From a virus: a stretch of 48,730 bases of DNA. Positions 137-39,984 of the stretch are shown in pieces (the first letter of the stretch is position 1; every line of letters starts with the position of its first letter). Made by a program: the position numbers and the translations under genes. The stretch is taken from the IMG/VR virus record IMGVR_UViG_3300013306_000020, positions 1 to 48,730 of that record. One strand, written 5' to 3'. The notes under the pieces are model-generated. The model had not been told where the DNA came from and ran no database searches. It saw only the letters and a list, made by a program, of their open reading frames with translations.

Positions 137-166
137 CGACGGTAACCGGGCGGGTCAGGTCTGATG
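137..166 (+). promoter_or_regulatory. late-type promoter, copy 1
   Basis: CGACGGTA at 137-144 matches the repeated first box. After 16 bp the second box position holds CTGATG (161-166), a weak match to ACnnTG. GTG 173 lies 29 bp after the first box, the spacing seen at the other late genes without leaders. Confidence 0.55.
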
Positions 167-172
167 CGCCAC

Positions 173-475
173 GTGAGCGACAACACCACCACGAACGTAC
201 GCGCCGACGTTGTCGGCATCCTCGACGAGCTCGAAGAGGCCGCGCCGCTGCCGAAGGGCCCCAAGTGCGGGATCGCGGCCGCGCTGGAACGGATCGCCGC
301 GGAGGACAAGGTGATCGGCGCGAAGGTCGCCGAGCGCGTCGACGACACAAGGGTCGCCGCGTCTGCCCTCGCCGCGATCCTGACGAAGCGCACCGGGCTC
401 ACCATCTCCGGTCAGACCGTGCGTCGTCACCGCAACCGTGGCGACGCCGTGCGTGGCTGCCGGTGCCCGCGATGA
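173..475 (+). CDS. small HTH DNA-binding protein (100 aa)
   Basis: The protein has an N-terminal acidic segment, the phrase LPKGPKC, and a C-terminal helix-turn-helix-like stretch (ISGQTVRRHRNRG) ending in GCRCPR. Small proteins of this type sit just ahead of phage packaging or phosphoesterase genes and are often annotated as HTH or terminase-small-like; I recognise the type, not a specific function. GTG 173 is preferred over ATG 164 because it sits at the leaderless position for the late promoter. The stop overlaps the next start as ATGA. Confidence 0.75.
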   Translation: MSDNTTTNVRADVVGILDELEEAAPLPKGPKCGIAAALERIAAEDKVIGAKVAERVDDTRVAASALAAILTKRTGLTISGQTVRRHRNRGDAVRGCRCPR

Positions 476-1827
476 TCGGCGACGACGTCCTGGCCGACCT
501 CGAGAGCCTCGTGTCGCTCGGTGGCGGCCACGACAGCACCGTCCCGTCTCTCCCGGTCACCGTGAAGCCCGCTGCGGCCCCGAAGGGCTGGGAGGCGGGG
601 TACAAGGTCCTCGACGACGGTTCGATGCTCGTGACGACCGCTGCGACGTCGCTGCGGGTGCAGCACGACGAGGGTGCGTGGCGTGGGCTCGTGGAGTCGC
701 TCGGCATGGACGTCCCGGACGGGTGGTCGGTGCGTCTCGTGGAGGCGAAGCACGATCCTGCCGCGTGGGGGCGTGACGAGCAGTTCGTCGAGTGGCCTGA
801 CGCGGACGCGCGCGCCGAGAAGGGCCAGTCGCGGTGGACGAAGTCGCAGGCGACCCGTCAGCCGGTGTGGCGGTACCGGTTCGCGGTGGAGCCGTCCCGG
901 CAGAAGGTCCACGACGACGACGTCGCCGCGATGATCCGTGACGCGATGCGCCGGCGCCGGAAGCGGCCCGCGCCGGTCGCGGCCGCGCGCCGGTCGCTGA
1001 ACGTGGTCTACGCCGACCCGCAGGCCGGGAAGGTGGCCGTGCTCGGTGGGACGGAGCAGCTGGCCGGCCGGTTCGCCGAGTGCATGGACATGCTCGACGA
1101 CCACATCAGGGACCTGCGGCTCATCGGCCGCGCCCCGACGGAGGCCGCGTGGCTCGACGCCGGAGACTGCGTCGAGGGCTTCAACAACGTGACGTCGCAG
1201 AAGCAGACGAACGACCTGGTGATGACGCAGCAGATCCGCGTGCACCGCCGCTTCACCTACCACGGGCTCGACTACCTCGCCCGGACGTTCCCCGACGTGA
1301 CAGCCGCGAGTTGCGGCTCGAACCACGCCGAGGTGCGCGACGGGAAGGACCCCGCCGCGGGCCCCAACAACGACTGGGGGCTCGAGGTCCTCTCGCAGGT
1401 GCAGGACGGCTACTCCCGCAACCCGGACGCCTACGGGCACGTGAAGTTCGCGTACCCGAAGCCGTGGACCGACACCCTCGCCCTCGACCTCGGCGGGCTC
1501 CCCGTCGGCCTCGCGCACGGGCACCAGTTCCGGCCCGGTCAGGCGACGACGTGGTGGAAGGGCCAGACGTTCGGGAACCAGCCCATCACCGACGCCCGCG
1601 TGCTCGTGGCGGGTCACTACCACCATCTTGAGGCCAAAGAGTGCGGCGACGGGCGCCTCTTCCTCCAGGCTCCGACGATGGACTCAGGTAGCCCTTGGTT
1701 CACCCGTCTCTCGGGCGAGGTGAGCGTGCCCGGGCTCTTGGTGTTCTCCACGACGGAGGACGGGTGGGACGACCTGCGGATCCTCCGGCCGGACGCCCCC
1801 GAGGTGCCGACGCTCAAGGCGCTGTGA
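472..1827 (+). CDS. calcineurin-like metallophosphoesterase (451 aa)
   Basis: The C-terminal half carries the ordered metal-binding motifs of the family: YADPQ (Asp about 182), AGD (Asp about 232), SNHAE (Asn/His about 284-285), AHGHQ (His about 351) and GHYHH (His about 382 and 384). These ligand two metals to hydrolyse phosphomonoesters or diesters. The substrate is unknown; phage members are usually encoded with head or packaging genes. The N-terminal 170 residues are not recognised. ATG 472 is chosen because it gives an ATGA overlap with the preceding gene. The 3' end overlaps the convergent gene at 1814 by 14 bp. Confidence 0.85.
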   Translation: MIGDDVLADLESLVSLGGGHDSTVPSLPVTVKPAAAPKGWEAGYKVLDDGSMLVTTAATSLRVQHDEGAWRGLVESLGMDVPDGWSVRLVEAKHDPAAWGRDEQFVEWPDADARAEKGQSRWTKSQATRQPVWRYRFAVEPSRQKVHDDDVAAMIRDAMRRRRKRPAPVAAARRSLNVVYADPQAGKVAVLGGTEQLAGRFAECMDMLDDHIRDLRLIGRAPTEAAWLDAGDCVEGFNNVTSQKQTNDLVMTQQIRVHRRFTYHGLDYLARTFPDVTAASCGSNHAEVRDGKDPAAGPNNDWGLEVLSQVQDGYSRNPDAYGHVKFAYPKPWTDTLALDLGGLPVGLAHGHQFRPGQATTWWKGQTFGNQPITDARVLVAGHYHHLEAKECGDGRLFLQAPTMDSGSPWFTRLSGEVSVPGLLVFSTTEDGWDDLRILRPDAPEVPTLKAL

Positions 1828-2326
1828 GCCGGTACGTCGTCCCCTCCGGCTCCGGGCGCACGAGGATCACGCCCGTGTCGACGAGGTTCCCCTCGTCGTC
1901 CCACAGCATCGTCTCGTAGTCGCCGACTCCGCTTCCGGCGAGGTGCGCCAGCGCAGACGCCAAGGTGCTGTCGAACATCGAGTCGGGGATCTCGCTGTCG
2001 CGCACGGTGACGTTCATGGCTTCCAGCTCGGGGTTGTCGCCGAGGCGGGCGCCCATCCCCCATCGCTTCGTCTTGTCCAGGGCCTCGTCGAGGTCCTCCT
2101 GCGTCCGGTCGCCCGAGGTGACCCACTCGCGGGCCTGCCACACGTCGGAGACGGCCTGCGGGATCGGTGCGTTGAGCGTCGCGAGCAGCTCGCGGGTCCA
2201 GGCGGTGACGGGGTGCCCGTCGGGCAGGTCGCGGGCCATGCGCTCGAGCGAGTCGATCCCGGCATACCTCGCGACGTCAGCGGGCGTCTCCCGGTGACAC
2301 AGGTAGTTGTAGGAGCCGCCGCTCAT
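1814..2326 (-). CDS. hypothetical protein with MSGGSYNYL start (170 aa)
   Basis: This is the last gene of a three-gene minus-strand operon. It begins MSGGSYNYLCHRE, an N-terminus I associate with scattered phage and bacterial proteins of unknown role. It is soluble, acidic and rich in Glu/Asp with no clear catalytic motif. Its ATG overlaps the TGA of the upstream membrane gene (ATGA), so it is probably translationally coupled. The C-terminus overlaps the convergent metallophosphoesterase gene. Confidence 0.8.
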   Translation of the reverse strand: MSGGSYNYLCHRETPADVARYAGIDSLERMARDLPDGHPVTAWTRELLATLNAPIPQAVSDVWQAREWVTSGDRTQEDLDEALDKTKRWGMGARLGDNPELEAMNVTVRDSEIPDSMFDSTLASALAHLAGSGVGDYETMLWDDEGNLVDTGVILVRPEPEGTTYRLTAP

Positions 2327-2511
2327 GCGAGGACCAGCATCCAGACGGCGACGTCACCGGCCAGCACGGCGGGCAGCAAGGACAGCGCGCCGAGCATGAG
2401 CAGGTCGGCGTCCCTCTTGCGCCGAGCCCGGCGCGAGAGGACGAACAGCCACACCGAGAGGGCGAGTAGCAGGGCCGAGGCCGCCAGCAGGAGGGTCATC
2501 AGGCCGCTCAT
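2323..2511 (-). CDS. small two-helix membrane protein (62 aa)
   Basis: Two hydrophobic segments (about residues 4-25 and 39-62) flank a basic loop with RRARRKRD, giving an inner-membrane hairpin. The protein is not recognised. It is coupled by ATGA overlaps to both neighbours, upstream at 2508-2511 and downstream at 2323-2326. In this cassette it may form a membrane complex with the product of 2508-2732. Confidence 0.75.
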   Translation of the reverse strand: MSGLMTLLLAASALLLALSVWLFVLSRRARRKRDADLLMLGALSLLPAVLAGDVAVWMLVLA

Positions 2512-2732
2512 GCGGAGACCAGGGCATCCAACAGGAACGGCGTCGTCCAAATCGCGAGGTTGCCGACGGTGACGAACCCGAGCGCCAGGAGCATCGCGCG
2601 GCGGTGCTCGCGCCGGGCTTCCGGGGACCCGAGGGGGCTCTCCGGCCAGAGCGCCGTTGCCATGAGGTAGGCGCCGGCGATCAGGAACGTGAGGCACGTT
2701 CCGATGATGCGGACTTTGGTGTAGATGTCCAT
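2508..2732 (-). CDS. small two-helix membrane protein (74 aa)
   Basis: This is the first gene of the minus-strand cassette. It has hydrophobic helices at about residues 7-29 and 48-72 with a charged middle (PEARREHRR), so it is probably a small membrane protein. The ATG has a good GGAG Shine-Dalgarno and a hairpin leader identical in style to the early genes, so it is probably expressed early although it lies among late genes. Exclusion or envelope modification are possible roles, not demonstrated. Confidence 0.8.
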   Translation of the reverse strand: MDIYTKVRIIGTCLTFLIAGAYLMATALWPESPLGSPEARREHRRAMLLALGFVTVGNLAIWTTPFLLDALVSA

Positions 2733-2749
2733 GTCTCTCCTTGTGGTGG

Positions 2750-2800: not shown

Positions 2801-2810
2801 TGGTAGCGGG

Positions 2811-2840
2811 CGACAGTAGCTCGCGACGCGGTGGACGGTG
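2811..2840 (+). promoter_or_regulatory. late-type promoter, copy 2
   Basis: CGACAGTA (2811-2818), 16 bp, ACGGTG (2835-2840). The start codon GTG 2847 places the boxes at -36..-29 and -12..-7. It lies back-to-back with the minus-strand early promoter. Confidence 0.7.
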
Positions 2841-2846
2841 CGGTCC

Positions 2847-3053
2847 GTGAGCAGAACGAACCTGACCCGCGCCCCGTCGTGCGCGGCATGCCAGACACCG
2901 ACCGACGACCTCGACGAGAACGGCGAATGCTTCGACTGCGCAGACGTCCCCGAGCTCGACCTCGAGACCACCCCCATCTGCTACGAGTGCGGCAACGATA
3001 TCGGCCCGTACGACGGGCTGTGCCTCGACTGCCTGGAAGAGCGGGACGGGTGA
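2847..3053 (+). CDS. zinc-ribbon-like small protein (68 aa)
   Basis: Four CxxC pairs (CAAC, CFDC, CYEC, CLDC) are spread over an acidic 68-residue chain, consistent with two zinc-binding ribbons. Such phage proteins are usually hypothetical. GTG 2847 is chosen over GTG 2838 from its spacing to the late promoter; there is no Shine-Dalgarno, so the mRNA is probably leaderless. The next late promoter starts 6 bp after its stop. Confidence 0.7.
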   Translation: MSRTNLTRAPSCAACQTPTDDLDENGECFDCADVPELDLETTPICYECGNDIGPYDGLCLDCLEERDG

Positions 3054-3058
3054 GGACG

Positions 3059-3088
3059 CGACGGTAGCGCGGCCGCCGGCGCACCGTG
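3059..3088 (+). promoter_or_regulatory. late-type promoter, copy 3
   Basis: CGACGGTA (3059-3066), 16 bp, ACCGTG (3083-3088), then only five bases before ATG 3094. No Shine-Dalgarno is present. Confidence 0.75.
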
Positions 3089-3093
3089 CCGCC

Positions 3094-3744
3094 ATGACGA
3101 CCCCCAACGCTGTCACCGCTCCCCCGTCCACCACAACCCCGTCCCCTACCCGGGGCCCGGTCCTCATCGGGCTCTCCGGCTACGCCAACACCGGCAAGGA
3201 CGCGGCCGCGGCCGCGCTCGTCGAGTCCGGCTGGCTCCTGGGCAAGTTCTCCCAGCCGATGAAGGACGCCGCGTACGCCGCGAACCCGCAGGTCGTCGCC
3301 AACGGCGTCACCTACCGGTACGCGAGCCTCATCGACGCCTACGGCATCGAGCAGGCCAAGGAGCTGTTCCCCGTCGTCCGTGAGTTCCAGCAGGACCTCG
3401 GCAAGGGCATGCGTGACGTGCTCGGCGAGAACGTGTGGGTCGACGCCGCCATGGCGAAGATCCCCGACACCGCCGCCGCGGTGTTCGTCGACTGCCGGTT
3501 CCCCAACGAGGCAGACGCGATCCGCGCCCGCGACGGGCTCGTCATCCGCATCAACCGTCCCGGCGTGGAGGCAGCGCGCCGCCCCGACGGCACGGTGCAC
3601 ATCAGCGAGACCGCCATGGACGACTACGTGTTCGACGTCGTCATCGACAACGACGGCACGCTCGAGGACCTCCGGGAGAAGGTCGGGGCCGTGGTCGGCG
3701 ACTGGATCCTCGGGTGGGTGTTCGAGTCGGAGCGGGCGACGTAA
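3094..3744 (+). CDS. deoxynucleoside monophosphate kinase-like protein (216 aa)
   Basis: After a Thr/Pro-rich tail of about 20 residues comes a P-loop, GLSGYANTGKD (residues about 26-36), the variant Walker A of phage dNMP kinases. Downstream, VFVDCRFPNEAD and VIRINRP fit the core and LID region of the family. It would phosphorylate dNMPs for phage DNA synthesis. Being behind a late promoter among virion genes is unusual but seen in actinophages. The family assignment is good; substrate specificity is not visible. Confidence 0.8.
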   Translation: MTTPNAVTAPPSTTTPSPTRGPVLIGLSGYANTGKDAAAAALVESGWLLGKFSQPMKDAAYAANPQVVANGVTYRYASLIDAYGIEQAKELFPVVREFQQDLGKGMRDVLGENVWVDAAMAKIPDTAAAVFVDCRFPNEADAIRARDGLVIRINRPGVEAARRPDGTVHISETAMDDYVFDVVIDNDGTLEDLREKVGAVVGDWILGWVFESERAT

Positions 3745-3766
3745 GCAGCCCCGGTCCGGCAGCCTC
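3737..3766 (+). promoter_or_regulatory. weak late-type promoter, copy 4
   Basis: CGACGTAA (3737-3744) overlaps the end of the kinase gene. At 16 bp spacing the second box is AGCCTC (3761-3766). It is a weaker match than the other copies. The gene at 3808 has its own Shine-Dalgarno (AAGGAAGG), so a leader would be present. Confidence 0.35.
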
Positions 3767-3807
3767 ACGCGCGGATATCCACTCACACAAGGAAGGCACC
3801 ACCCATC

Positions 3808-4278: not shown

Positions 4279-4285
4279 TCGTGAC

Positions 4286-4317: not shown

Positions 4318-4324
4318 TAGCGCG

Positions 4325-4354
4325 AGACACAAGCCACGGAAACCCACCACCCTG
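4325..4354 (+). promoter_or_regulatory. late-type promoter, copy 5
   Basis: AGACACAA (4325-4332), 16 bp, ACCCTG (4349-4354). The next gene starts at 4393 with TTGGAGG, so this copy makes an mRNA with a leader of roughly 30 nt. Confidence 0.55.
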
Positions 4355-4392
4355 CACCTGACCAGCCCACTGACTCACCCCTTGGAGGGGAA

Positions 4393-6125: not shown

Positions 6126-6715
6126 TGGGCGAGTTCAAGCCCGTCCCCAACCTCGACCAGCTCATCGCCAAGATGATCGAGGGCGAGGTGGCCCGCGTCG
6201 TGCGCGAGACGGAGGCTGAGGCGAAGCGGCAGGCGCCGCCGACGAAGGAGTGGCGCACGGCGATGGACGCCCACGTGCGTCGCACCCACCGGGCCATGAA
6301 CGGCGAGGTGCTCCCGGAGAACCTGCGCTTCAAGGTGCAGGCCTACGAGTGGGACATCGAGCACCCCGGCGCGATGCCGGTCGAGCGGAACATGGAGGGC
6401 GGCCACCAGTCCCGCGACGCCCCGATCGCGCCCGGCGCGTTCTCCTACATGCGGGAGCCTCGAGACCACTCTGCCGGGCATCTTGTCCAGATCGTGTCGT
6501 GCCGGTGCCAGATCATCCTCGACCCGGAGGGCGTCGCGAAGATGGTCGGGTCGACCGCGGTGACCGTCCGCGGCACGAAGGTGTCCGGGACCGTGTACGC
6601 CGACGGGAAGGACGTCATCGCCGCCGAGTACGGCGACGAATACCCGGGCGGGTTCGTCGCCGAGGGCACCTTCTTCATGCACAAGACGGTCGTCGCGATG
6701 GGCAACCGCGCGTAG
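6125..6715 (+). CDS. neck or minor head protein (196 aa)
   Basis: The protein has an N-terminal charged helix with an IxxMIExEVARVVRETEAEAKR heptad-like pattern, then a middle PVERNMEGGHQSRDAP and a C-terminal VRGTKVSGTVYADGKD. Its position between stopper and tail terminator matches the HK97 gp10-like or minor head protein slot. The family is not certain. The start is coupled (TGATG) to the previous gene, and a late promoter begins 5 bp after its stop. Confidence 0.55.
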   Translation: MGEFKPVPNLDQLIAKMIEGEVARVVRETEAEAKRQAPPTKEWRTAMDAHVRRTHRAMNGEVLPENLRFKVQAYEWDIEHPGAMPVERNMEGGHQSRDAPIAPGAFSYMREPRDHSAGHLVQIVSCRCQIILDPEGVAKMVGSTAVTVRGTKVSGTVYADGKDVIAAEYGDEYPGGFVAEGTFFMHKTVVAMGNRA

Positions 6716-6719
6716 CCCG

Positions 6720-6749
6720 CGACACTAGGCCAGCGCGACCTTCACAGTG
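6720..6749 (+). promoter_or_regulatory. late-type promoter, copy 6
   Basis: CGACACTA (6720-6727), 16 bp, ACAGTG (6744-6749). ATG 6756 puts the boxes at -36..-29 and -12..-7, a textbook arrangement for a leaderless transcript. Confidence 0.8.
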
Positions 6750-6755
6750 CCGGGC

Positions 6756-7477: not shown

Positions 7478-7486
7478 CGCAGCCCG

Positions 7487-7516
7487 CGACACTAACGGGT
7501 CCACTCAGCGACCCTC
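7487..7516 (+). promoter_or_regulatory. late-type promoter, copy 7
   Basis: CGACACTA (7487-7494), 16 bp, ACCCTC (7511-7516). It feeds the major tail protein gene, whose start is 47 bp further and has a purine-rich Shine-Dalgarno (GGAAGAGAG), so this mRNA has a leader. Confidence 0.65.
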
Positions 7517-7562
7517 CCTCCCGACCGGTAACCACCTCGATCGGAAGAGAGAACACCCCAGC

Positions 7563-8199: not shown

Positions 8200-8213
8200 G
8201 CATGTCCAGCCCG

Positions 8214-8243
8214 CGACACAAGCACCCCCGAGCAGGCACCGTC
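8214..8243 (+). promoter_or_regulatory. late-type promoter, copy 8
   Basis: CGACACAA (8214-8221), 16 bp, ACCGTC (8238-8243). A small inverted repeat CGAGC/GCTCG (8229-8233, 8245-8249) brackets the second box. It drives the chaperone, tape measure and distal tail genes; TGGAGG precedes ATG 8297. Confidence 0.65.
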
Positions 8244-8296
8244 CGCTCGACCACACACAACGCGGCCCACCCGCACCACTGGAGGAACCAGACACC

Positions 8297-12857: not shown

Positions 12858-12859
12858 CC

Positions 12860-13720: not shown

Positions 13721-13728
13721 TGAGCGGG

Positions 13729-13758
13729 CGACACTAGGACTCCCCGGAAGGCACCGTC
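13729..13758 (+). promoter_or_regulatory. late-type promoter, copy 9
   Basis: CGACACTA (13729-13736), 16 bp, ACCGTC (13753-13758), start ATG 13766. CCCGG (13743-13747) and CCGGG (13758-13762) form an inverted repeat around the second box. Confidence 0.75.
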
Positions 13759-13765
13759 CGGGCCC

Positions 13766-16700: not shown

Positions 16701-18268
16701 CCCTCAACGCGGCCGCCCCCGTCGCGGTCTCCGACGGGCCCGTCACGAACCCGCCCTACACGGCGTACTCCGCGATCACGTTCGAGTCCTACGAGCAGGA
16801 CGGCGGCGACCTCATCATCGGCGCCGGCGCGACCGACCTGTTCTGCTCGCTGCGCTTCACGGCGACGAACAACGCCGCGGACTGCCTCATCTACCTCGAC
16901 GACGTGTCCGTCGTCGAGGTCGGCGCCGGTGGCGCGTCCGAGCTCACATCGGCCGGGCTGCGCCTGTTCGACGACAACGGCGACGAGCAGTCCGCTTTCG
17001 TGTCGAACCGCCCGAACACGTGGCAGATCCAGAAGGCCGGGGAGGTCGTCGCGTCCGGCACGAAGGACGGCGACGTCTTCGGTCAGAACCTCGTCGTCAA
17101 CAAGGACGTCATGTTCGACGGGGCGCCGCTCCTCGGCCGCTACAAGGACATCTTCCTCAACAAGGGCTCCTACGACACCGGTTACGACGCAGGCCGCGAC
17201 TTCGAGAGCGAGCCCGTCGGGGTCGCAGAGTCCCTCGCCGGCGGCATCGCCGCCCGCGGGTTCTTCGGCGGCAGCACCTTCTCCAACCCGACGATCGCGC
17301 CCGCCAACGGCTTCCAGAAGCTCTTTCAGATCAACGCCGACCTCGACATCGGCCGTTGGTACACGTTCATGATGTCGCCGCTCATGGTGAACATCACGGG
17401 CACTACGACGGCGGCGCTGCTCGTCAAGGCCAACTTCGACGGCTCGAACCCCAACACGGCCAGCACCCTGATCGCGCGCTGCTACGTGACCGGGACCGGC
17501 TTCCAGTCCCTAACCATCCCGGCGCGTGGCATCGCGGGTGCAGCGAACCAGCGCGACGCCCGGTTCCTCGTCTACCTCCAGAACACCGGCGCGTCCGGCG
17601 CGGGCAGTTTCACGCTCGTCAACCAGGACAACCTGACGTGCGAGATCGTCGACCTCGGCTACGCCCCGGAGAACAACGCGATCACTGTCATCAACACCTA
17701 CACCGCGCCGGCGGCAGGGGAGACCGCGACGGCGGGCGTGAAGAAGACGTACGTCACGACGTGGACGGCCAGCGCGAGCGACTCCTACGGCGCGTTCGGG
17801 GCCCGCTCGGAGAACAACCTGTTCCAGGGCTACTACTCGACCAACCAGGGCCACCAGTGGGCGTCGATCGTATTCGGCGGGTCGACGTCGACAGGCGGCC
17901 AGAACACACCTCTCGCGACGGCCATGGGTGGCGGAGCGATCGTGAAGAAGGTCGAGCTCTACGTCAAGAACGACCAGTGGTACAACAACTCGGGCGGCAC
18001 GGCCGTCGTCCGCGCGCAGACGTCGACGGGCCTCATCACGTCGACGCCGGGCGGCACGGCCAAGAACTTCGCCATGGACTCCGGTGAGGGCCGCTGGCTC
18101 GACATCACGTCGATCGCCGCTGGCCTGACCGGGGGCGCGGCCGCGATCCGCGGGGTGACGCTCGGCAAGGCCCCGTCGACGTCACGCGCCTACTACGGCC
18201 AGTTCCGCAACCACACAGACCCGTCGACGACGTACCGGCCCAAGCTGCGCGTCACATATTCGAAGTGA
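13766..18268 (+). CDS. tail-tip / minor tail protein with FN3-like and C-terminal binding domains (1500 aa)
   Basis: Residues 1-390 (LRAYDRNGAALGLMPDF ...) look like the hub or tail-tip domain found after distal tail proteins. Around 415-620 there are fibronectin-III-like repeats (TWPAVDQDSDGTPLDDLDGYEVQV, VRARVLAKDTSGNRSDW, YGEAWWFRFVAVDVQGNRS). The region 640-1100 is beta-rich with carbohydrate-binding-module-like segments. The last 200 residues end in TTYRPKLRVTYSK, a signature of DNRLRE-type beta domains on secreted and phage proteins. It is probably the receptor-binding component. A late promoter precedes it and no Shine-Dalgarno is present. Confidence 0.8.
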   Translation: MGVFLRAYDRNGAALGLMPDFTDLNVQTVDNEPGTMTFRYQKDGLLASLLDRDELFLSVNEDGVVSSDLFVLEDDTDDPVQTLTQTKRRWVTCSARGYMSVLEQAVVFPKGANAAGTNLYGLKPEYKFDDKSPGNIMLVLINEAKARGALTELQTDFVTATDSAGRAWPKTYDITYQPGANLLSVLTDMINDGWVDARMEGRKLRLFVPDTYFGTKTDMLRYGQNVTSAPRKRSRRNILSHVLAAGDAEKKATVQVANATTAARFGRREGFASDGRLTKTAALTSLANRELSTHQMFKEAFTLEMVMNPPGPGEGWPRPGIDFFVGDRIYYDRARINSTEYQPLLVRSITKAWGDTNRAATCSIELADLFVKQTARTAAQVAAIVNGSTGVRMPAPRAPQRDAFPPVGPSTVTVTGATDLFDEGVRKTYRSTATITWPAVDQDSDGTPLDDLDGYEVQVAVNGGPWSASKVSKDTQELVTGLKPLDLVRARVLAKDTSGNRSDWTLSVAVQMPMDLTAPLVPTVPVLTQKLGVVTCRWDGQGTPGPAAMPPDFHHVEVQRCLSNAFTTGVIVVDSLMEPDAATLVSGLPYGEAWWFRFVAVDVQGNRSVPGPAASIAVAPLVNGDLPAQVILDIENAKGTLNGWTFTGKTTINGGKIEADSLTIAAIKAGTIGVSKLAVADTANMVDVNETNPGIVQQVTGTTLVTGGYSARTDETVSTFRLGQKKGPIPFKQGERLRFTTRAYVTSGAVTATVRLWVFKSDDTVFPYQDLGTIALTTAPTNFTVEADITLDLTDRATYYLELAGVTNQPVRVQTTRCYRMGAGELLVDGSIQAKHMSANSVKADSIEAGAIDVDKITQGVLRSNLMPDPGFESTSALTSFASAGQGLSFQWRHDRSGTGAQAYRATGKARGGARRMVIGVDGTGSTATVGRVYSPSFKVEAAKTYRVNWYALANGAGATGVNVPKLTVEAVFGPAANTLNAAAPVAVSDGPVTNPPYTAYSAITFESYEQDGGDLIIGAGATDLFCSLRFTATNNAADCLIYLDDVSVVEVGAGGASELTSAGLRLFDDNGDEQSAFVSNRPNTWQIQKAGEVVASGTKDGDVFGQNLVVNKDVMFDGAPLLGRYKDIFLNKGSYDTGYDAGRDFESEPVGVAESLAGGIAARGFFGGSTFSNPTIAPANGFQKLFQINADLDIGRWYTFMMSPLMVNITGTTTAALLVKANFDGSNPNTASTLIARCYVTGTGFQSLTIPARGIAGAANQRDARFLVYLQNTGASGAGSFTLVNQDNLTCEIVDLGYAPENNAITVINTYTAPAAGETATAGVKKTYVTTWTASASDSYGAFGARSENNLFQGYYSTNQGHQWASIVFGGSTSTGGQNTPLATAMGGGAIVKKVELYVKNDQWYNNSGGTAVVRAQTSTGLITSTPGGTAKNFAMDSGEGRWLDITSIAAGLTGGAAAIRGVTLGKAPSTSRAYYGQFRNHTDPSTTYRPKLRVTYSK

Positions 18269-18273
18269 GCCCG

Positions 18274-18303
18274 CGACAGTAACCATCCCCGTCGGGGATG
18301 GTG
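18274..18303 (+). promoter_or_regulatory. late-type promoter, copy 10, with overlapping hairpin
   Basis: CGACAGTA (18274-18281), 16 bp, ATGGTG (18298-18303). A 9-bp inverted repeat ACCATCCCC/GGGGATGGT (18282-18290, 18294-18302) fills the spacer and second box. The next confident start is 18398, so a leader of about 85 nt is expected. Confidence 0.5.
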
Positions 18304-18397
18304 CCTCTCGCGGTGGGGTTCGCGGAGGACCCCCGGAGAGCCACTGGCCCCGGGGGTCCGACCCCGCCAGCCACCACCATCCGAGACGAGACCTGTT

Positions 18398-18892
18398 GTG
18401 ACCGAGCTGCCCACGTGGCTGACCATCGCTGGTGCGATCGCCGCCGCTGTCGGTGGCGTCGGCGGCCTCACCGGGATCGCGCTCGTCCTCAAGGCTCGCG
18501 CGGAACGGGCGAAGCTCGCCGCGGAGGCTGAGAAGCTGGCCGCCGAGTCGGAGAAGGTCGAGGCTGACGCCGCGTCGCAGCTGACCGACGTCGCCCTCAA
18601 GCTCGTCACCCCACTGAGCAACGAACTCACGGCGCTGCGGGCCGCACACTCCACCACGCAGGCCCGCGTAGGCCAGCTGGAGTCCGACCAGCGCACGCAG
18701 CACATGCTCCTCGTCGAGCACTCCGTGTGGGATCACCTCGTCCTCGCGCGGATGAAGGACTCCGGTGTCGAACTGCCGCCCATCCCGCCCCTGTTCCCGC
18801 CGACCGCGCCCGCCCAGCCTGCGCCGGCGGCCGCGCCGTCGACCGAGGTCACCGTGGCCGTGACGACCACCCCGGCCGAGCCCGCGACGTAA
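18398..18892 (+). CDS. holin-like membrane protein with coiled coil (164 aa)
   Basis: An N-terminal membrane segment (about residues 8-32, AGAIAAAVGGVGGLTGIALVL) is followed by an Ala/Glu/Lys heptad coiled coil (33-105) and a Pro/Ala/Thr-rich tail. This one-helix layout after the tail genes fits a lysis-cassette membrane protein, either holin or accessory. GTG 18398 has GAGACGAG upstream. The stretch 18304-18397 holds no convincing gene. Confidence 0.65.
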   Translation: MTELPTWLTIAGAIAAAVGGVGGLTGIALVLKARAERAKLAAEAEKLAAESEKVEADAASQLTDVALKLVTPLSNELTALRAAHSTTQARVGQLESDQRTQHMLLVEHSVWDHLVLARMKDSGVELPPIPPLFPPTAPAQPAPAAAPSTEVTVAVTTTPAEPAT

Positions 18893-18950
18893 ACCCCCGG
18901 CGAGGAGCATCCTCCGGGCGCATCACACCTCTTCATCCCTGGAGCAGCCC

Positions 18951-31365: not shown

Positions 31366-31529
31366 AGCCGTGCCCCGACTGCTGGGTGGAGGCGCAGCGT
31401 CGCGAGCTCGCGACGGGGGAGGACCCCGACACGGCATACCGCGAGGTGCTCCCGATGTGCCCGCTCTTCCACGACGCGACACAGACGCCACCGATCCGAA
31501 AGGGTGCCCGTCGTTGGGCCCGCAGCTGA
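31362..31529 (+). CDS. small Cys-containing protein (55 aa)
   Basis: It has a CPDC pair at residues 4-7 and a further Cys near residue 34 (PMCPLFHD), perhaps a zinc-binding knuckle. GTG with GTGA overlap ends the operon. Its last five codons form part of the left arm of a long RNA stem. The function is unknown. Confidence 0.55.
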   Translation: MKPCPDCWVEAQRRELATGEDPDTAYREVLPMCPLFHDATQTPPIRKGARRWARS

Positions 31530-32762: not shown

Positions 32763-32773
32763 TGTGGAAACCC

Positions 32774-32833: not shown

Positions 32834-32858
32834 ACCACCGTTGGACGGAGAAGAACCC

Positions 32859-33092
32859 ATGGACGTCACCCCCGAGAGCGTGTGCATCGGCAAGGCACCG
32901 CACGACACGAAGGAATCCGCGGCCACCTCGGCTCGAGCGCAGCGCGCGAAGCACGGCGGCCGCTGGCACTCCTACCGGTGCCCCTTCTGCGAGAAGCACC
33001 ACGTCGGGCACCTCGCCCGCGTGAAGGGCCACGGCATCGGCGGCAAGTCGGCCCGGAAGTCGAACCGCCGCGACGACCTCACCTACGCGTAG
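32859..33092 (+). CDS. small zinc-finger-like protein (77 aa)
   Basis: The segment YRCPFCEKHHVGH has CxxC followed by His residues, a compact zinc-binding motif; the rest is Lys/Arg-rich (ARAQRAKHGGR, RVKGHGIGGKSARKSNRR), suggesting nucleic-acid binding. ATG 32859 with GGAG is chosen. It is a single early gene, since a late promoter for parB-terS begins 5 bp after its stop. Confidence 0.7.
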   Translation: MDVTPESVCIGKAPHDTKESAATSARAQRAKHGGRWHSYRCPFCEKHHVGHLARVKGHGIGGKSARKSNRRDDLTYA

Positions 33093-33096
33093 CCCG

Positions 33097-33126
33097 CGAC
33101 ACTAGGGGCGCCGGTCATCCACATTT
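33097..33126 (+). promoter_or_regulatory. late-type promoter, copy 11, with large inverted repeat
   Basis: CGACACTA (33097-33104), 16 bp, ACATTT (33121-33126). GTG 33132 is 28 bp after the first box. An 11-bp inverted repeat GGCGCCGGTCA/TGACCGGCGCC (33105-33115, 33131-33141) with inner CCACA/TGTGG covers the spacer, second box and first codons. It drives packaging genes in the early half of the map. Confidence 0.65.
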
Positions 33127-33131
33127 CTGTG

Positions 33132-33782: not shown

Positions 33783-33784
33783 CC

Positions 33785-34405: not shown

Positions 34406-34455
34406 CGGTGTCTGCGAGGCCGTGACACCCGGCCGCCCGGGGTCGTTGGACTAAC

Positions 34456-34767: not shown

Positions 34768-34818
34768 CCACTGTCGGTTAGGACGTATACGCTTCACCTG
34801 CCGGTCAAAGCGCGCCGG
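34765..34818 (+). promoter_or_regulatory. early-type promoter with hairpin leader (ssb)
   Basis: TAGCCA (34765-34770), 17 bp, TACGCT (34788-34793); CCGG-n10-CCGG (34801-34818) with AAAGCG in the loop; then GAAAGAGACC and ATG 34855. The stem is the shortest of the family. Confidence 0.6.
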
Positions 34819-34854
34819 ACACATCACACCCCGAACGAAAGAGACCACATCACC

Positions 34855-35433: not shown

Positions 35434-35452
35434 CCCGCACCTCGAGAACGAC

Positions 35453-35484
35453 GAAGGCCCCCTCACCTCGGTGGGGGGGCCTTC
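35453..35484 (+). terminator. bidirectional terminator between ssb and the sigma operon
   Basis: GAAGGCCCCC (35453-35462) pairs with GGGGGCCTTC (35475-35484). It separates the convergent ssb and the minus-strand membrane gene ending at 35494. Confidence 0.75.
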
Positions 35485-35493
35485 CGTATGCCG

Positions 35494-36741
35494 TCAGAGA
35501 CCGATGAAGATGCCCGGCAGGCTGATCGTCACCGACACCTTCGCCCCGGTCTGCATGGGCTCCTCGGACGGTGTCGGCTCCGGCTCGGGCGCCGGTGCCG
35601 GGGTGCCCGTATCGGCAGCGGGCGCCTGCGTCTGTGTCGGTGCAGGGTCAGGGTCGGGGGAGGGCGCTGGCCTCCCGGCCTCGTCAGGAGCCGCAGGAGC
35701 CTCCGTGGCGGGCTGGGACGGCTCCTCGGGCACCGGCGCGCCCGGACCGGCCTGTGACGGCTCCACGGTCCGTGTGGGCCCCTCGCCCGTCGGCCACGGC
35801 ACGAGCGACGTCGGCATCTTCGTCGGCCACTCCTCGAACGGGTTGCGGCCAGGGGTTGCAGGCTTGCCCGTCGGGAACGTCCTGACGCCGTCGAGCACCG
35901 AGTCATCGACCGCGCCAGCGAGGTCGGCCATGACGTCCGGGTCCGTCGCGCCAACGAGCACCCGGTCACGCGACGACATCACCGGGTAGAGCCGCTGATA
36001 GCCGGCGAGCTGCGGGAACGCCTTGCGCTCCTCCGCGGAGTCGAAGATCCACACCACGGCCATCTCCGACCCGTGGGAGAACCGGAACGACGTCGGGTCC
36101 TCGTCGACGCCCTCGTATGCCGTCACCTTCCAGATCGTGCCCTCGGCCACGTTGCGGCACTCGGCCGACGTCTCCGACTGCACCGTGCACTGGAAGTTCG
36201 CGGCCCGCGCGAGCTCGGTGAACTCAGGACTGTCGAACGGCGACGAGTTCAGCGACGACAGAAGCGAATACACGCCCAGCGAGAGCGCCGCGACCCCTGT
36301 CACGACCGCACCCGCGAGGATGCGGACGCGGCGCTTGCTCATCGGGACGGTGTCGGCTTCCACCGCGCCACGCACCCAGTCGGGGGAGGAGCCGTGGAGT
36401 TCTCGAGACAGGTTCTCCAGCGACGGCGCGTTCGGCATCGCGGCCCGCACCACGCGGATGATGTCGTCGGGGTGCTCCGACGGGAACAGCTTGGACAGCT
36501 GCTCGACCGCGTTCTCGTGCGACTGGCCGGCGCGCAGGATGATGAGGTGCCCGACCCGGACGGCGTCGACGGTCTCCTCGGGGGCGACGATCGCGTCGAA
36601 CTCAGGGTGCGGGGTGCGCAGCGGCGAGTCAGGGTCGTGCGGGCCGCAGGTGAAGCAGGCGCAACCGAACGGGTGGTCGACGATGACCTCGAACTCGTCG
36701 AGGATCGACCTTCTGCCTGGGGCAGTGGGCGGCGCCGTCAC
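35494..36741 (-). CDS. single-pass membrane protein, possible anti-sigma factor (415 aa)
   Basis: The N-terminal 139 residues are cytoplasmic-type and carry a Cys/His cluster, HPFGCACFTCGPH (His 23, Cys 27, 29, 32, His 35), like a variant zinc anti-sigma motif. One transmembrane helix lies at about 140-164. The outer part has about 120 residues of globular sequence (CTVQSETSAECRN, VWIFDSAEERKAFPQ), then a long Pro/Glu/Thr-rich linker and a short hydrophobic end. Topology, operon order after a sigma gene and GTGA coupling all suggest a membrane anti-sigma or sensor. Direct homology is not recognised. Confidence 0.7.
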   Translation of the reverse strand: MTAPPTAPGRRSILDEFEVIVDHPFGCACFTCGPHDPDSPLRTPHPEFDAIVAPEETVDAVRVGHLIILRAGQSHENAVEQLSKLFPSEHPDDIIRVVRAAMPNAPSLENLSRELHGSSPDWVRGAVEADTVPMSKRRVRILAGAVVTGVAALSLGVYSLLSSLNSSPFDSPEFTELARAANFQCTVQSETSAECRNVAEGTIWKVTAYEGVDEDPTSFRFSHGSEMAVVWIFDSAEERKAFPQLAGYQRLYPVMSSRDRVLVGATDPDVMADLAGAVDDSVLDGVRTFPTGKPATPGRNPFEEWPTKMPTSLVPWPTGEGPTRTVEPSQAGPGAPVPEEPSQPATEAPAAPDEAGRPAPSPDPDPAPTQTQAPAADTGTPAPAPEPEPTPSEEPMQTGAKVSVTISLPGIFIGL

Positions 36742-37127
36742 TGCTTTCGCTCGGCTGCGTGCGCGGCGGCAAGGGTCGCGTACCGGGCCGCGACTCGAGC
36801 AGCCTTCGCCGGGTCGATCGCGTCGATGTCGGCCAGCTGCACCGGGACGTCGTTGAGGACCATCACCAGGGGAGCGTGCTCGGGCAGCTCGGCGGTGCCC
36901 TCGTCGTCGTTGTTGCGGACGGCGAGGTCTGTGCCGCGAGCGAACTCGCGCAGCGCGACGTCCAGAACGCGACGACGGTGCGGCTCGCTCTGCGTGGTCG
37001 AAGCGTCAGGGGTGAGAGCAAGGGCCGCGGTGCGCAGCCGGTGACCGGAGCGCGTGGCCGGGCCAGTCAGGTTGTCGAGGACCTCAGCGGCTTGCTCGTT
37101 CGTGAGACGTTGACGTCGTCCGAACAT
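36738..37127 (-). CDS. small protein coupled to the sigma factor (129 aa)
   Basis: It is helical and basic at the N-terminus (MFGRRQRLTNEQAAEVLDNLTG), with a hydrophobic middle (PLVMVLNDVPVQLADIDAIDP) and an Ala-rich helix at the end. No family is recognised. ATG 37127 with AAAGG upstream is chosen; a GTG at 37136 is possible. It overlaps the sigma gene by 44 bp and the next gene by GTGA, so the three are expressed together. It may help control the sigma factor. Confidence 0.7.
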   Translation of the reverse strand: MFGRRQRLTNEQAAEVLDNLTGPATRSGHRLRTAALALTPDASTTQSEPHRRRVLDVALREFARGTDLAVRNNDDEGTAELPEHAPLVMVLNDVPVQLADIDAIDPAKAARVAARYATLAAAHAAERKQ

Positions 37128-37740
37128 TCGAAGCACCTTTCTCAGTGACGCCGACCATGCTCACGCGGGCGTGAGAGGCGGGGATCGCCTTCTCGAGGAC
37201 TCGCATGGCGCGGTGCTGGATGACCTTGACGTTGGATTCAGACAGCCCCGTGGTGGCGGCAGTCTCTAGAACAGAGAACCGATGGAAGAACCGAAGGGTT
37301 ACGACTTCCGCGTCTCGTTTTGACAGCTTGCCCAGCGCGGCGGCGACGACACGCCGGGTTTCCTCGGCCAGGGCGTCATCCTCCGGTCCCGCCATACCCG
37401 TTGGGGCGTCGAGGGAGAGCATCGACTCGGTGGGGATCTCGCGGATGGGCGCCCGGTACGCCGACCGGATGGTGTTGGCGGCGATCGTCACGAGCCACTT
37501 GATGAAGCCGTGGCCGGTCGATTGGTAGGTGTGGATCGACCTCGCGACCTTCGCCCACACCTCGCCGGTGATGTCCTCGGCAGCGTGGTGTGTCCCCACC
37601 CGGACGTAGACCCAGCGGTAGATGTCGTCGGCGTATCGCTCGTAGAGGGCGCCGAACGCGTCGCGGTCACCAGCAGCAGCGGCGACTGCGACGGCTTCGA
37701 AATCCGAAGCAGGGTCCTGCGTGGCGCGTGCAAGCGTCAT
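37084..37740 (-). CDS. ECF-type RNA polymerase sigma factor (218 aa)
   Basis: Region 2 spans about 25-97 (AFGALYERYADDIYRWVYVRVGTHHAAEDITGEVWAKV ... FIKWLVTIAANTIRSAYR) and region 4 about 127-185 (LGKLSKRDAEVVTLRFFHRFSVLETAATTGLSESNVKVIQHRAMRVL), with no region 3: an extracytoplasmic-function-like sigma70 protein. It would redirect host RNA polymerase. ATG 37740 is preferred (AGGAG 12 nt upstream); in-frame upstream starts up to 37839 exist. A weak minus-strand -10 TACGTC is at 37795-37800. A sigma factor with its own operon in a phage is uncommon. Confidence 0.9.
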   Translation of the reverse strand: MTLARATQDPASDFEAVAVAAAAGDRDAFGALYERYADDIYRWVYVRVGTHHAAEDITGEVWAKVARSIHTYQSTGHGFIKWLVTIAANTIRSAYRAPIREIPTESMLSLDAPTGMAGPEDDALAEETRRVVAAALGKLSKRDAEVVTLRFFHRFSVLETAATTGLSESNVKVIQHRAMRVLEKAIPASHARVSMVGVTEKGASNVRTTSTSHERASR

Positions 37741-37878
37741 GTGCTGCTCGTACTCCTGGGACGGAAGCGGGTGGTGGGACCGCGCACTCAGGGGGACGTA
37801 TGCACTTTGGTTGGACACCGAACCCCCGACAGCGCCCATGCTACATGGGTGGAACTCGGGTCAAGCGACACGAAACTG

Positions 37879-37958
37879 TTGCGTTAGCAGGGCCACAGTT
37901 ATACGGTCTGTGTGCGGCTTCCGTAGCCGCGAGACACCCACCCCGGGAAGCGCCTGGG
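37879..37958 (+). promoter_or_regulatory. early-type promoter with hairpin leader
   Basis: TTGCGT (37879-37884), 17 bp, TACGGT (37902-37907); hairpin CCCGGG-AAGCG-CCTGGG (37942-37958, one G-T pair), then ACCACCACCGAAGGG and ATG 37986. It is divergent from the sigma operon. Confidence 0.7.
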
Positions 37959-37985
37959 ACCACCACCGAAGGGATGCCCTCCACC

Positions 37986-39251
37986 ATGATCGTTACGGCC
38001 CCACCGAACGCCCGCGTCACCTACGACGTCAACGACCCGGCGTTCCCCCACGGCCAGCCCGTCGGCTACTCACGCGGCTGCAACCGCGAGTGCTGCATGG
38101 CGGCCGAGCGTCGCCGCGACAAGGAGCGAGAGCTCGAACGCCTCCGTGGCATCGCCGCCCCAAACCGCACCGTCCCCGCCCGCATGGCCCTGGCTGCGAA
38201 GCGGCACATCGACGACCTCATCGAGAACCACCACGCCAGCGCCAACGCGATCGCCCGCCACCTCGGGATCGGCTCGGGCGCGATCCTTCGGACGCAGAGC
38301 GGGAAGTCCCCGACCCGGACCGTCTACGACGCGATCATGTCTGTGAAGCCGGGTCAGGTGCAGCGCGCCGACCGGGTCGATGCCGCAACCACGGTGCTGC
38401 TCTCCGGCCAGATGCAAGCCCTCGGCTACCCGATGTCGTGGCAGGGCGAGCAGTGCGGCGTCGGCGGCAAGACCCTCATCGTGATCCTCGGCAAGGTCCG
38501 ACGCGGGCAGCAGAAGTGGGTGGAGCCGCGGACCGCGGACGCGATCGCCGACCTTGCAACTCGCGTCGCAGGCCGCGTCGCCAACCCCCTCCGCGACGGC
38601 ATCGAGCCCCGCGACGTCAACCGCGCCAAGAGCGTCGCGAAGCGCAACGGCTACTACCCGCCGGCGGCCTACAACGAGGACGGCACCCTCGACTGGCGCG
38701 CGATCCCCGACCACCCGTGGACCGTCATCAACGAGGCCTGCCACGAGCACATCGAGCGCCTCGAGGTCGCGATCAGGAACGAAGAGCTCGGCGCCCGCGG
38801 GCTCACCACACTCACCCTCGACTACAACGAGGACGCGTTCCCCCCGGGCAGCCCCGAGCACACCGAGTTCGTCCGTATCGAAATGGCCTACCGCCGGCTC
38901 CTCGAAGGCCTCGGCATCCGCGCGATCGACGGCGGCGCCGAGAAGCGCGCCGAGCTGCACGAGGCGCTGTGGCGGTTCATGCGCCGCGGCGAGGGCGACC
39001 CGGTGTCGTTCTGCATCGACCTCGGCATCGTGTCCGCGGACTCCACGAAGATCCCCTCGGACCACCCCGCCGTCGCTGAGGCTCGCGCGGCATCCAAGGA
39101 GGCCAACCTCGAACGCCGCCGAGCAGCCCGGAAGCAGGAGCGTCGGAGGAAGAAGAAGCCGATGACCCCGGCGCAGCGCGAGGCCCACAACAAGCGCAAG
39201 CGCGACGCCCGCAGCCGCGCCCGTGCCGAGCAGCAGGACGTGGCAGCATGA
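37986..39251 (+). CDS. HTH DNA-binding protein with basic tail (421 aa)
   Basis: The N-terminus has a small Cys motif (SRGCNRECCMAAERRR). Two helix-turn-helix-like units follow: HASANAIARHLGIGSGAILRTQSGKSPTRTVYDAI (about 80-115) and the region around QGEQCGVGGKTLIVILGKVRRGQQKWV. The last 60 residues are strongly basic (RRRAARKQERRRKKKPMTPAQREAHNKRKRDARSR). Similar multi-HTH proteins are common in actinophages; the exact role is unknown. ATG 37986 is chosen over ATG 37974, which is too close to GAAGGG. Confidence 0.75.
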   Translation: MIVTAPPNARVTYDVNDPAFPHGQPVGYSRGCNRECCMAAERRRDKERELERLRGIAAPNRTVPARMALAAKRHIDDLIENHHASANAIARHLGIGSGAILRTQSGKSPTRTVYDAIMSVKPGQVQRADRVDAATTVLLSGQMQALGYPMSWQGEQCGVGGKTLIVILGKVRRGQQKWVEPRTADAIADLATRVAGRVANPLRDGIEPRDVNRAKSVAKRNGYYPPAAYNEDGTLDWRAIPDHPWTVINEACHEHIERLEVAIRNEELGARGLTTLTLDYNEDAFPPGSPEHTEFVRIEMAYRRLLEGLGIRAIDGGAEKRAELHEALWRFMRRGEGDPVSFCIDLGIVSADSTKIPSDHPAVAEARAASKEANLERRRAARKQERRRKKKPMTPAQREAHNKRKRDARSRARAEQQDVAA

Positions 39252-39505
39252 CCCAGCCGCGCCGCGTCCCGGCGCACGCCCTGGACCTGCTCCGGCTCAT
39301 CCCTCCCGACGGGTGGATCAGCGCGGCCGCTCTCGCCCTGCACGACGGGGTCGAGGTCGTCGACGGCCGCATCACCGGACTGCGCGCGCTCCGGTCCTCC
39401 AGCGCCATCACGATCCGCCGCCACACGGACGGGCACCTGCTCTACGCCCGCACCCCGACCGGCGAGAGCATCCTGGCCGAGCACCCGACACGCCACGTCG
39501 CCTGA
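39248..39505 (+). CDS. small winged-helix-like protein (85 aa)
   Basis: HALDLLRLIPPDGWISAAALALHDGVEVVDGRITGLRALRSSSAITIRRHTDGHLLYARTP reads as helix, helix, recognition helix and wing. It could be a DNA-binding partner of the upstream HTH protein, to which it is coupled by an ATGA overlap. The family is not assigned. Confidence 0.6.
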   Translation: MTQPRRVPAHALDLLRLIPPDGWISAAALALHDGVEVVDGRITGLRALRSSSAITIRRHTDGHLLYARTPTGESILAEHPTRHVA

Positions 39506-39508
39506 CCC

Positions 39509-39569
39509 TTGCCACCCCGCCGGCCGTCGGCATACGGTCGAGACACAGCCCGCCGGGGAAGCGCCCGGC
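39509..39569 (+). promoter_or_regulatory. early-type promoter with hairpin leader
   Basis: TTGCCA (39509-39514), 18 bp, TACGGT (39533-39538); hairpin GCCGGG-GAAGCG-CCCGGC (39552-39569); AACCACACGGAGAG; ATG 39589. One of the cleanest copies. Confidence 0.8.
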
Positions 39570-39588
39570 CAACCACACGGAGAGCCCT

Positions 39589-39840
39589 ATGACCATCGCC
39601 ATTCCAGCGCACACCACCGAGACGCGGCTCATGTCCGCGGCCGAGCTCGTGTCCCGCTTCAACATCACCGCCGAGCAGGTGCTCGTCACCGACAACGGCA
39701 TCACCTTGCGCGGCGTGTCCATCGAGACCATCGCCGACATCGCCCCAGCACTCGCCCTCACCCCGTCGGACTTCCTCGACCGTGGGTATGAGGGCGTCAC
39801 GTTCGACGGCATCCCTGTGACCGTCGAACAGAGCCGCTAG
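39589..39840 (+). CDS. hypothetical small protein (83 aa)
   Basis: It is an acidic mixed alpha/beta protein (SAAELVSRFNITAEQVLVTDNGITLRGVSIETIADIAPAL). No family is recognised. It is a single-gene unit between its own early promoter and a strong terminator, so it is probably made at high level early in infection. Confidence 0.7.
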   Translation: MTIAIPAHTTETRLMSAAELVSRFNITAEQVLVTDNGITLRGVSIETIADIAPALALTPSDFLDRGYEGVTFDGIPVTVEQSR

Positions 39841-39897
39841 GTCGGCTCACGGCCGCCCGTCGAGGCTTCCCCCTGTCCCCGACGGTCGGCCGACCAA

Positions 39898-39936
39898 TGA
39901 GGCCGCGCACCCCCGACCCCTGGGTGCGCGGCCTCA
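39898..39936 (+). terminator. strong terminator
   Basis: A perfect 15-bp stem joins 39898-39912 (TGAGGCCGCGCACCC) and 39922-39936 (GGGTGCGCGGCCTCA) across a 9-nt loop. It insulates the following late-type promoter. Confidence 0.8.
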
Positions 39937-39953
39937 CCCATGCCCGCAGCGGG

Positions 39954-39984
39954 CGACGGTAGCCCGACCGCGGCGTACACAGTC
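39954..39984 (+). promoter_or_regulatory. late-type promoter, copy 12
   Basis: CGACGGTA (39954-39961), 17 bp, ACAGTC (39979-39984), start ATG 39988. First box and start distance (27 bp) match the family; the spacing to box 2 is one base longer. Confidence 0.6.

Follow-up and report, generated by a model that had tools for sequence, protein, structure and literature searches.

The 48,730-base IMG/VR virus record IMGVR_UViG_3300013306_000020, here called the window, carries a repeated two-box element on its + strand and, on its - strand, a gene for an extracytoplasmic function (ECF) sigma factor, which we propose as the reader of that element. A preliminary description of the window had listed 12 copies of the element as late promoters without naming a reader for them, and all 12 are present where it placed them, on the + strand and at gene boundaries. 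The sites are given below; box 1 is named by its first base, and promoter and leader assignments are predictions.

131..167, + strand: predicted late promoter, box 1 at 137; leaderless GTG at 173
2805..2841, + strand: predicted late promoter, box 1 at 2811; leaderless GTG at 2847
3053..3089, + strand: predicted late promoter, box 1 at 3059; leaderless ATG at 3094, deoxynucleoside monophosphate kinase-like gene
3731..3767, + strand: predicted late promoter, box 1 at 3737; leadered ATG at 3808 with AAGGAAGG
4319..4355, + strand: predicted late promoter, box 1 at 4325, AGACACAA; leadered ATG at 4393 with GGAGGGG
6714..6750, + strand: predicted late promoter, box 1 at 6720; leaderless ATG at 6756, partial match to gp62 of phage Gilgamesh, leaderless too
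7481..7517, + strand: predicted late promoter, box 1 at 7487; leadered ATG at 7563, major tail protein
8208..8244, + strand: predicted late promoter, box 1 at 8214; leadered ATG at 8297, tail assembly chaperone, offset 83 as in Gilgamesh
13723..13759, + strand: predicted late promoter, box 1 at 13729; leaderless ATG at 13766, tail protein of 1500 amino acids (aa), offset 37 as for Gilgamesh gp71
18268..18304, + strand: predicted late promoter, box 1 at 18274; 5' of a membrane protein gene (18398)
18879..18915, + strand: predicted late promoter, box 1 at 18885, missed by the preliminary description; leadered ATG at 18951
31471..31507, + strand: weak candidate late promoter, box 1 at 31477; intergenic
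33091..33127, + strand: predicted late promoter, box 1 at 33097; leaderless GTG at 33132, ParB-like protein
39948..39985, + strand: predicted late promoter, box 1 at 39954, spacer one base longer; leaderless ATG at 39988, product starting like a signal peptide
43827..43863, + strand: doubtful promoter-like site, box 1 at 43833; inside the predicted gene 43214-43960

The promoter element in the window and its relatives

The boxes first drawn, CGACnnTA and ACnnT(G/C), mark real sites but are too short. The full element reads AGSSCG-CGACRYWARC-N14-AnnnTsC, with a conserved AGSSCG 5' and a conserved RC 3' of the original box 1, and the key bases of box 2 are the A at offset 24 and the T at offset 28, counted from the start of box 1. 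Because the 8-mer CGACnnTA alone is not enriched in the window (12 matches on both strands, 9 on + and 3 on -, against 12.5 expected by shuffling), enrichment was tested on the longer element, AGCSSGCGACNNWA, which occurs 10 times on the + strand, site 18885 included, and not once on the - strand, with 0 and 0 matches for the reversed-pattern control; the sites at 137, 3059, and 4325 are looser copies. The longer spacer described at 39954 was also found, by one extra base. A scan of the window with a matrix trained on 466 sites outside it, themselves gathered with a matrix seeded by window sites so that the scan is not wholly independent, returned 15 places of at least 13 bits, all on the + strand: the 12 described sites, 18885 (25 bits), 31477 (16 bits), and 43833 (19 bits). 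One further + strand place, at 24547 and intragenic, scored 9.5 bits, and no place on the - strand of the window reached 8 bits. Across 200 random windows from an order-2 Markov model, the mean was 0.02 places of at least 13 bits and the maximum 1, with one random place scoring 23 bits. As a check on the window-seeded matrix, a seed-free motif search (8 copies fixed, 500 seeds) was run on the gaps between predicted genes of the window, and it ranked the promoter motif best, with 8/8 copies on the + strand.

Bases 1-24000 of the window had no megablast match in the phage collection, and when viral contigs were searched with one protein at a time (the tail protein, the major tail protein, the product of 4393-5031, or the sigma factor), each search returned one relative or none. 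Relatives were reached as follows: the 60 kb record G001 through the 1500-aa tail protein; Streptomyces phage Gilgamesh (129 kb) through the tape measure protein; 43 IMG/VR loci, G001 included, through an alignment of the major tail protein; and 14 genome loci, 13 in Streptomyces and 1 in Nakamurella, through an alignment of protein 472-1827 with its Gilgamesh homologue. Relatives of the major tail protein also lie on seven Streptomyces plasmids (125-133 kb) and one Thermobispora plasmid (145 kb), and two of these plasmid records, examined further, are circular; the group therefore includes phage-plasmids. The 125-133 kb records (L220 and others) were deposited as ordinary Streptomyces plasmids and look like phage-plasmids of this group.

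The preliminary description had called for a motif search in relatives, and 58/59 sequences (the window, Gilgamesh, and 57 relatives) carry the element, the exception at the threshold of at least 15 bits being the Nakamurella locus. With a matrix seeded with window sites and then re-estimated, these 59 sequences hold 470 sites of at least 15 bits on the + strand, 2 on the - strand (both in Gilgamesh), and 2 when reversed. Equal frequency on the - strand had been named as grounds for refutation; the counts, 10 to 0 in the window and 470 to 2 in the family, are the opposite. One record, L022, was dropped before counting as the same record as G001, and near-identical records were kept (L034 and L071 are both 126,324-base records with the sigma gene at identical coordinates), so that the counts are not independent. 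The family consensus is AG(S)(S/R)CG, CGACRYWARC, 14 bases, A, n3, T, S, C. A site stands 30-140 bp before the major tail match in 41/42 loci, and another just 3' of that gene in 27/42. In late-gene orientation, G001 also has a site, at 21904, before sequence like that at window position 31477. A 48-kb stretch of one Streptomyces plasmid holds 12 + strand sites against 1 on the - strand at 12 bits or more, plus a sigma gene. In seven whole Streptomyces genomes, 54/61 strict box-1 matches fall on a single prophage contig per genome (reversed-pattern control, 10 in total), and the host chromosomes searched contain few such matches. Sigma sub-groups differ slightly at offset 0, where one accepts any base and the others have C; this fits change in step with the sigma factor and also common descent.

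The - strand of G001, in late-gene orientation, carries a second repeat, roughly GTGTCG followed by GGGACGCTT, for which the motif search chose eight copies (21086, 26775, 32939, 38298, 40054, 44018, 49055, and 53744); it is possibly an operator or an early promoter.

Start codons behind the element

The A at offset 24 and the T at offset 28 fit positions -11 and -7 of a -10 element, so the predicted transcription start (+1) is offset 35, and at leaderless-type sites this point coincides with the start codons. Among open frames of at least 60 codons in the family, 44 begin at offset 35, 40 at offset 36, and 16 at offset 37 (84 ATG and 16 GTG in all), followed by 1 at offset 38 and 0 to 5 at each of offsets 39-51; offsets 38-46 hold 6 ATG and 4 GTG. 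Another 220 open frames begin at offsets 15-27, inside the promoter, 111 of them at offset 27, where the box often spells GTG, and 55, mostly GTG, begin at offsets 52-54; the latter group are probably not true starts. The seven window start codons first proposed as leaderless (173, 2847, 3094, 6756, 13766, 33132, and 39988) hold as places, and the distance of 27-30 bp after box 1 given for them becomes, from the first base of box 1, offsets of 36, 36, 35, 36, 37, 35, and 34.

After 4/481 sites near a sequence end were dropped, 477 were classified with coding filters: 104 as leaderless, 361 as having a downstream start codon with a Shine-Dalgarno sequence, and 12 as neither. Shifting the anchors by -300 to +500 bases gave 4 to 29 leaderless calls against the 104 of 477 at the true anchor. 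The lack of a Shine-Dalgarno sequence reported before the leaderless starts of the window extends to the family, in which only 5/104 have a match of at least 4 bases; the leadered class is defined by having a Shine-Dalgarno sequence, which makes its own count circular. Where both the window and Gilgamesh have a site, matching genes belong to the same class: gp62 and gp71 are leaderless (their protein matches to the window are partial), and gp57, gp58, the major tail protein, and the chaperone are leadered, like their window counterparts. Comparison thus supports the earlier view of late promoters giving both leaderless and leadered messages, with starts that are predicted from sequence.

Several annotated start codons may need revision on this basis. 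Of the annotated starts at 28782, 31978, and 46193 in the Gilgamesh record, those of gp45 and gp48 fall within the predicted -10 box and the one of gp50 is upstream of the promoter, with in-frame leaderless starts downstream; the true starts of these three genes are probably 12 to 42 nucleotides (nt) farther downstream. The gp48 gene (31978-45852) is very large, about 4,600 codons, and sits behind a predicted leaderless late promoter. Passages of PMC8079986 on Streptomyces lividans put transcription starts on average 6.3 nt beyond the -10 hexamer (range, 4-9 nt) and class 17% of transcripts as leaderless, figures which fit the predicted leaderless late messages.

The sigma factor gene and its neighbors

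The sigma factor gene lies on the - strand with two partners and a promoter of host type:

37838..37864, - strand: predicted promoter of host type for the sigma gene, TTGACC-N15-TAGCAT; the window has three strict matches of this kind
37084..37839, - strand: ECF sigma factor gene, whose product is proposed to read the promoters; translation likely starts at the ATG at 37740
36738..37136, - strand: small protein (about 130 aa), conserved operon partner, overlapping the end of the sigma gene
35494..36741, - strand: protein with a single membrane segment preceded by basic residues; its layout makes it a candidate anti-sigma factor

The product matches Pfam Sigma70_r2 (4e-13) and the region 4 profile r4 (8e-11), and having regions 2 and 4 only, joined by a short linker, it shows the layout of ECF (group 4) sigma factors; its best solved relative is BldN (6dxo, 4.7e-25), which is also the top fold match of its predicted model. 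Gilgamesh has the same gene order, with the single-stranded DNA-binding protein (SSB) gene and then, on the - strand, a long protein, a small protein, and gp92, annotated as a sigma factor. The three-gene operon of sigma factor, protein of about 130 aa, and longer protein was found in 22/22 cases, namely the window, Gilgamesh, and 20/20 relatives read. In 14/22 the longer protein has a membrane segment above the hydropathy cut-off, and the others have a weaker like segment behind basic residues; that this protein is an anti-sigma factor is our guess. A zinc-binding (ZAS-like) cysteine pattern in the window protein was dropped as a candidate, being not conserved in relatives; the window protein has an extra, zinc-binding-like stretch, HPFGCACFTC, that is absent from the aligned relatives.

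Among the 43 IMG/VR relatives, 28 carry the sigma gene, always on the strand opposite to the late genes and 24.5-32.4 kb downstream of the major tail gene (two of the 28 fit only on circular wrapping). It is present in 14/14 records reaching more than 32.4 kb beyond the major tail gene, and the 15 sigma-less records reach at most 30.4 kb. In 7/7 whole Streptomyces genomes, the contig with the most strict box-1 matches also carries the best sigma match; since the element and the best sigma match share a prophage contig, the element is not a host promoter class. The second-best match in all seven is chromosomal, at about 1e-42, and the one tested is BldN, with two more grouping with BldN. One prophage copy of the sigma gene, in Streptomyces mashuensis (G047:C2:346496-347197, L132), has an inner TAG stop, and the surrounding promoter sites are kept.

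A search starting from the sigma factor gave 59 loci, 33 of them in new records and 7 of those with the motif nearby. From the 33, these 7 entered a tree as motif-bearing and 15 as motif-less, and 11 low-GC, short, or distant records were left out, among them L194 with a single 14-bit site. In the tree of 55 sigma factors, BldN and the 15 motif-less phage sigma factors grouped together (support, 0.98), apart from the 37 motif-bearing ones. The motif-less phages form a sister group with sigma factors 26-37% identical and no motif near them; six full sister records contain 1 site of at least 13 bits in 321 kb and no sigma factor of the motif-bearing clade. A late motif of their own was not clear in these six, a seed-free search returning palindromes or nothing convincing. 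The sister records (L156, L162, L165, L168, L170, L172, L178-L182, L185, and L190) are 49-56 kb long, and their BldN-like sigma factors, like BldN, lack a C-terminal extension. The motif-bearing sigma factors whose ends were read all have one, of about 28-45 residues and disordered in the predicted model; it may explain the extra upstream AGSSCG.

A strict host-type promoter stands in 7/22 sigma upstream regions against about 0.2 expected, six of the seven being close relatives of one kind, and late sites on the strand of the sigma gene are absent within 9 kb of it at motif-bearing loci. The promoter of the sigma gene together with this layout suggests a cascade, predicted from host sigma factor to phage sigma factor to late genes.

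Proposed mechanism and comparison with known systems

We consider it probable (roughly 0.8) that the sites are the late promoters of a Streptomyces phage and phage-plasmid family and are read by the phage's own ECF sigma factor. Host RNA polymerase with the housekeeping sigma factor would transcribe the phage sigma gene first, and the phage sigma factor would then direct host polymerase to two boxes in front of the virion, lysis, and other late genes: AGSSCG-CGACRYWARC, at about -41 to -26, and cAnnnT, at -12 to -7. RNA would begin about 7 nt after the last T of box 2 (offset 35), and where the start codon lies at or within 2 nt of +1, at about a fifth of the family sites and 7 of the 12 originally described, the message would be leaderless; at the remaining sites it would have a leader, mostly of 25-50 nt, with a Shine-Dalgarno sequence. 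An ECF-like CGTC at -10 was considered and dropped, since it would place the start downstream of the leaderless start codons. An extension of this scheme, tentative and in our view rather less likely to hold than not to, is that the late genes stay silent because the BldN-like sigma factor is tethered to the membrane protein of its own operon, acting as an anti-sigma factor, until a signal frees it; an envelope or developmental signal would release the sigma factor, its C-terminal extension would read the extra upstream half of the -35 region, and the regulon of 10-25 promoters, about a fifth of them leaderless, would fire at once.

Several observations weigh against the proposal that the phage sigma factor reads these promoters. 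Box 1, at 16 bp, is longer than the usual -35 element, and box 2 (A-n3-T) is nearer to the housekeeping -10 TAnnnT than to most ECF -10 elements. The element stays nearly constant while the sigma factors drop to about 30% identity, 15/22 sigma upstream regions are without a strict host-type promoter, and the seed-free search in G001 and G066 ranked other repeats first. As for the proposed membrane restraint, neither the membrane protein nor the small protein gave a significant profile, RsbN-like, PDB, or fold match as an anti-sigma factor, and L163, which is motif-bearing, has no membrane protein gene behind its sigma gene. A further difficulty is the Thermobispora bispora plasmid (NZ_CP039125, L217-L219), from another actinobacterial order than Streptomyces, whose virion module is related to that of the group (identities: TerL, 49%; portal, 42%; capsid, 46%; tail, 37%). 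It holds 28 GACRYWARC boxes, or 22 with a duplicated stretch counted once, against 2 in the reversed control; its element has A at offset 23 in 18/22 copies and T at offset 27 in 15/22, one base closer, and is without AGSSCG. No sigma factor of this family and no Sigma70_r2 domain was detected on this plasmid, which has weak region-4-like stretches below the cut-off; the same profile does find the sigma factor in the Streptomyces plasmid. Because the Thermobispora replicon carries transposases and a large duplication, loss of the sigma gene is possible. Alternatively, the sigma factor may have diverged or be encoded on the chromosome, or the element may be read by another factor. Among Streptomyces relatives long enough to show the sigma gene, the element was found only together with it; the Thermobispora variant occurs without a detected sigma factor.

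The plasmid counts in favor of a different reading, in which HrdB, the housekeeping sigma factor, recognizes box 2 as a weak -10 element, nAnnnT, and a phage activator binds the 16-bp box 1 over the -35 region. The length of box 1, AGSSCG included, suits an activator site, the A-n3-T spacing reproduces the two strongest bases of TAnnnT in the S. lividans consensus, and the GAC of box 1 matches that of nTGACn (passages of PMC8079986). Even so, the first T of TAnnnT is mostly absent (offset 23 is T in 72/481 sites and C in 328), and box 1 has CGAC, not TGAC, so that the sites do not look like housekeeping promoters at either -10 or -35. The absence of motif-bearing-clade sigma factors from the six motif-less sister records also speaks for a link between the element and the sigma factor, which is the only phage gene for which linkage to the motif was examined; overall, we regard this explanation as unlikely. 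Reading by BldN itself or by another host ECF sigma factor, with the phage sigma factor serving another role, could likewise explain Thermobispora. The chromosomal second-best matches in the seven Streptomyces genomes are candidates for such a factor, and the BldN consensus CGTAAC-16-CGTTGA is somewhat like CGACGTAAGC. This is nevertheless very improbable given the concentration of strict box-1 matches on prophage contigs in those genomes and the retention of the phage sigma gene in every relative whose record extends far enough to show it. Phage repeats are often operators, and further repeats were found in G001 and the sister phages, so the element might instead be some other phage signal, such as an operator, a packaging or partition site, or an RNA processing signal. 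Operators are usually palindromic and strand-neutral, however, and this element lies on one strand only, in two boxes with fixed spacing and with start codons at offsets 35-37, which makes such a role scarcely credible.

The results point to how late genes are switched on in Streptomyces phages and phage-plasmids of a group that has been little studied, which can be tested in Gilgamesh on S. lividans, and offer hundreds of natural candidate promoters for an ECF sigma factor in high-GC bacteria. They also suggest that a virus took over a sigma factor of the host developmental type, which it may also restrain at the membrane by means of its own.

Among the closest known systems is Salmonella phage 7-11, which, in the passages of PMC8948821 concerned, has a sigma factor (gp47) and bipartite late promoters, like those predicted here. 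Those passages give GTAAtg-(16)-aCTA at 8 sites before late genes, with starts 6-9 bp from the element, and assign the early genes to host sigma70 (PMC8948821). As expected of a system of this type, the element described here is repeated, differs from the promoters of the host, and is placed before late genes on one strand. Phage 7-11 differs in being an unrelated lytic podophage of an enterobacterium, with 8 promoters and other boxes, and the passages describe no leaderless messages and no membrane partner (PMC8948821). In phiEco32, too, a phage sigma factor (gp36) drives late genes, but its middle/late promoters have a single element, tAATGTAtA, with no -35, attributed in the passages to the absence of region 4 (PMC8948821 and PMC7881722). 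The Privateer sigma factor, related to phiEco32 gp36, is called ECF there, with no clear anti-sigma candidate in the part of the paper concerned (PMC7881722).

Within Streptomyces, BldN (6dxo; passages of PMC4125116) is the closest sigma factor in sequence and predicted fold. It differs in being a host developmental sigma factor without the C-terminal extension. The host BldN-type sigma gene is likewise followed by a membrane protein gene, whose product we take to be RsbN, the anti-sigma factor of BldN; no likeness was detectable between this host protein and the phage membrane protein. Streptomyces housekeeping promoters, as passages of PMC8079986 present them, share the A and T of the -10 element and the GAC of the -35 element, and the most frequent class of leader length, 26-40 nt, resembles that of the leadered sites of the family; they differ in that TAnnnT starts with T and in having no AGSSCG or WARC (PMC8079986). 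In a search of mainly open literature, no paper among the matches listed dealt with Streptomyces phages whose late promoters are sigma-dependent or whose late messages are leaderless. Older work on the promoters of Streptomyces phage phiC31 reportedly exists. A phage sigma factor with late promoters of its own is known from phage 7-11, and the system proposed here would be a variant of it in Streptomyces phages.

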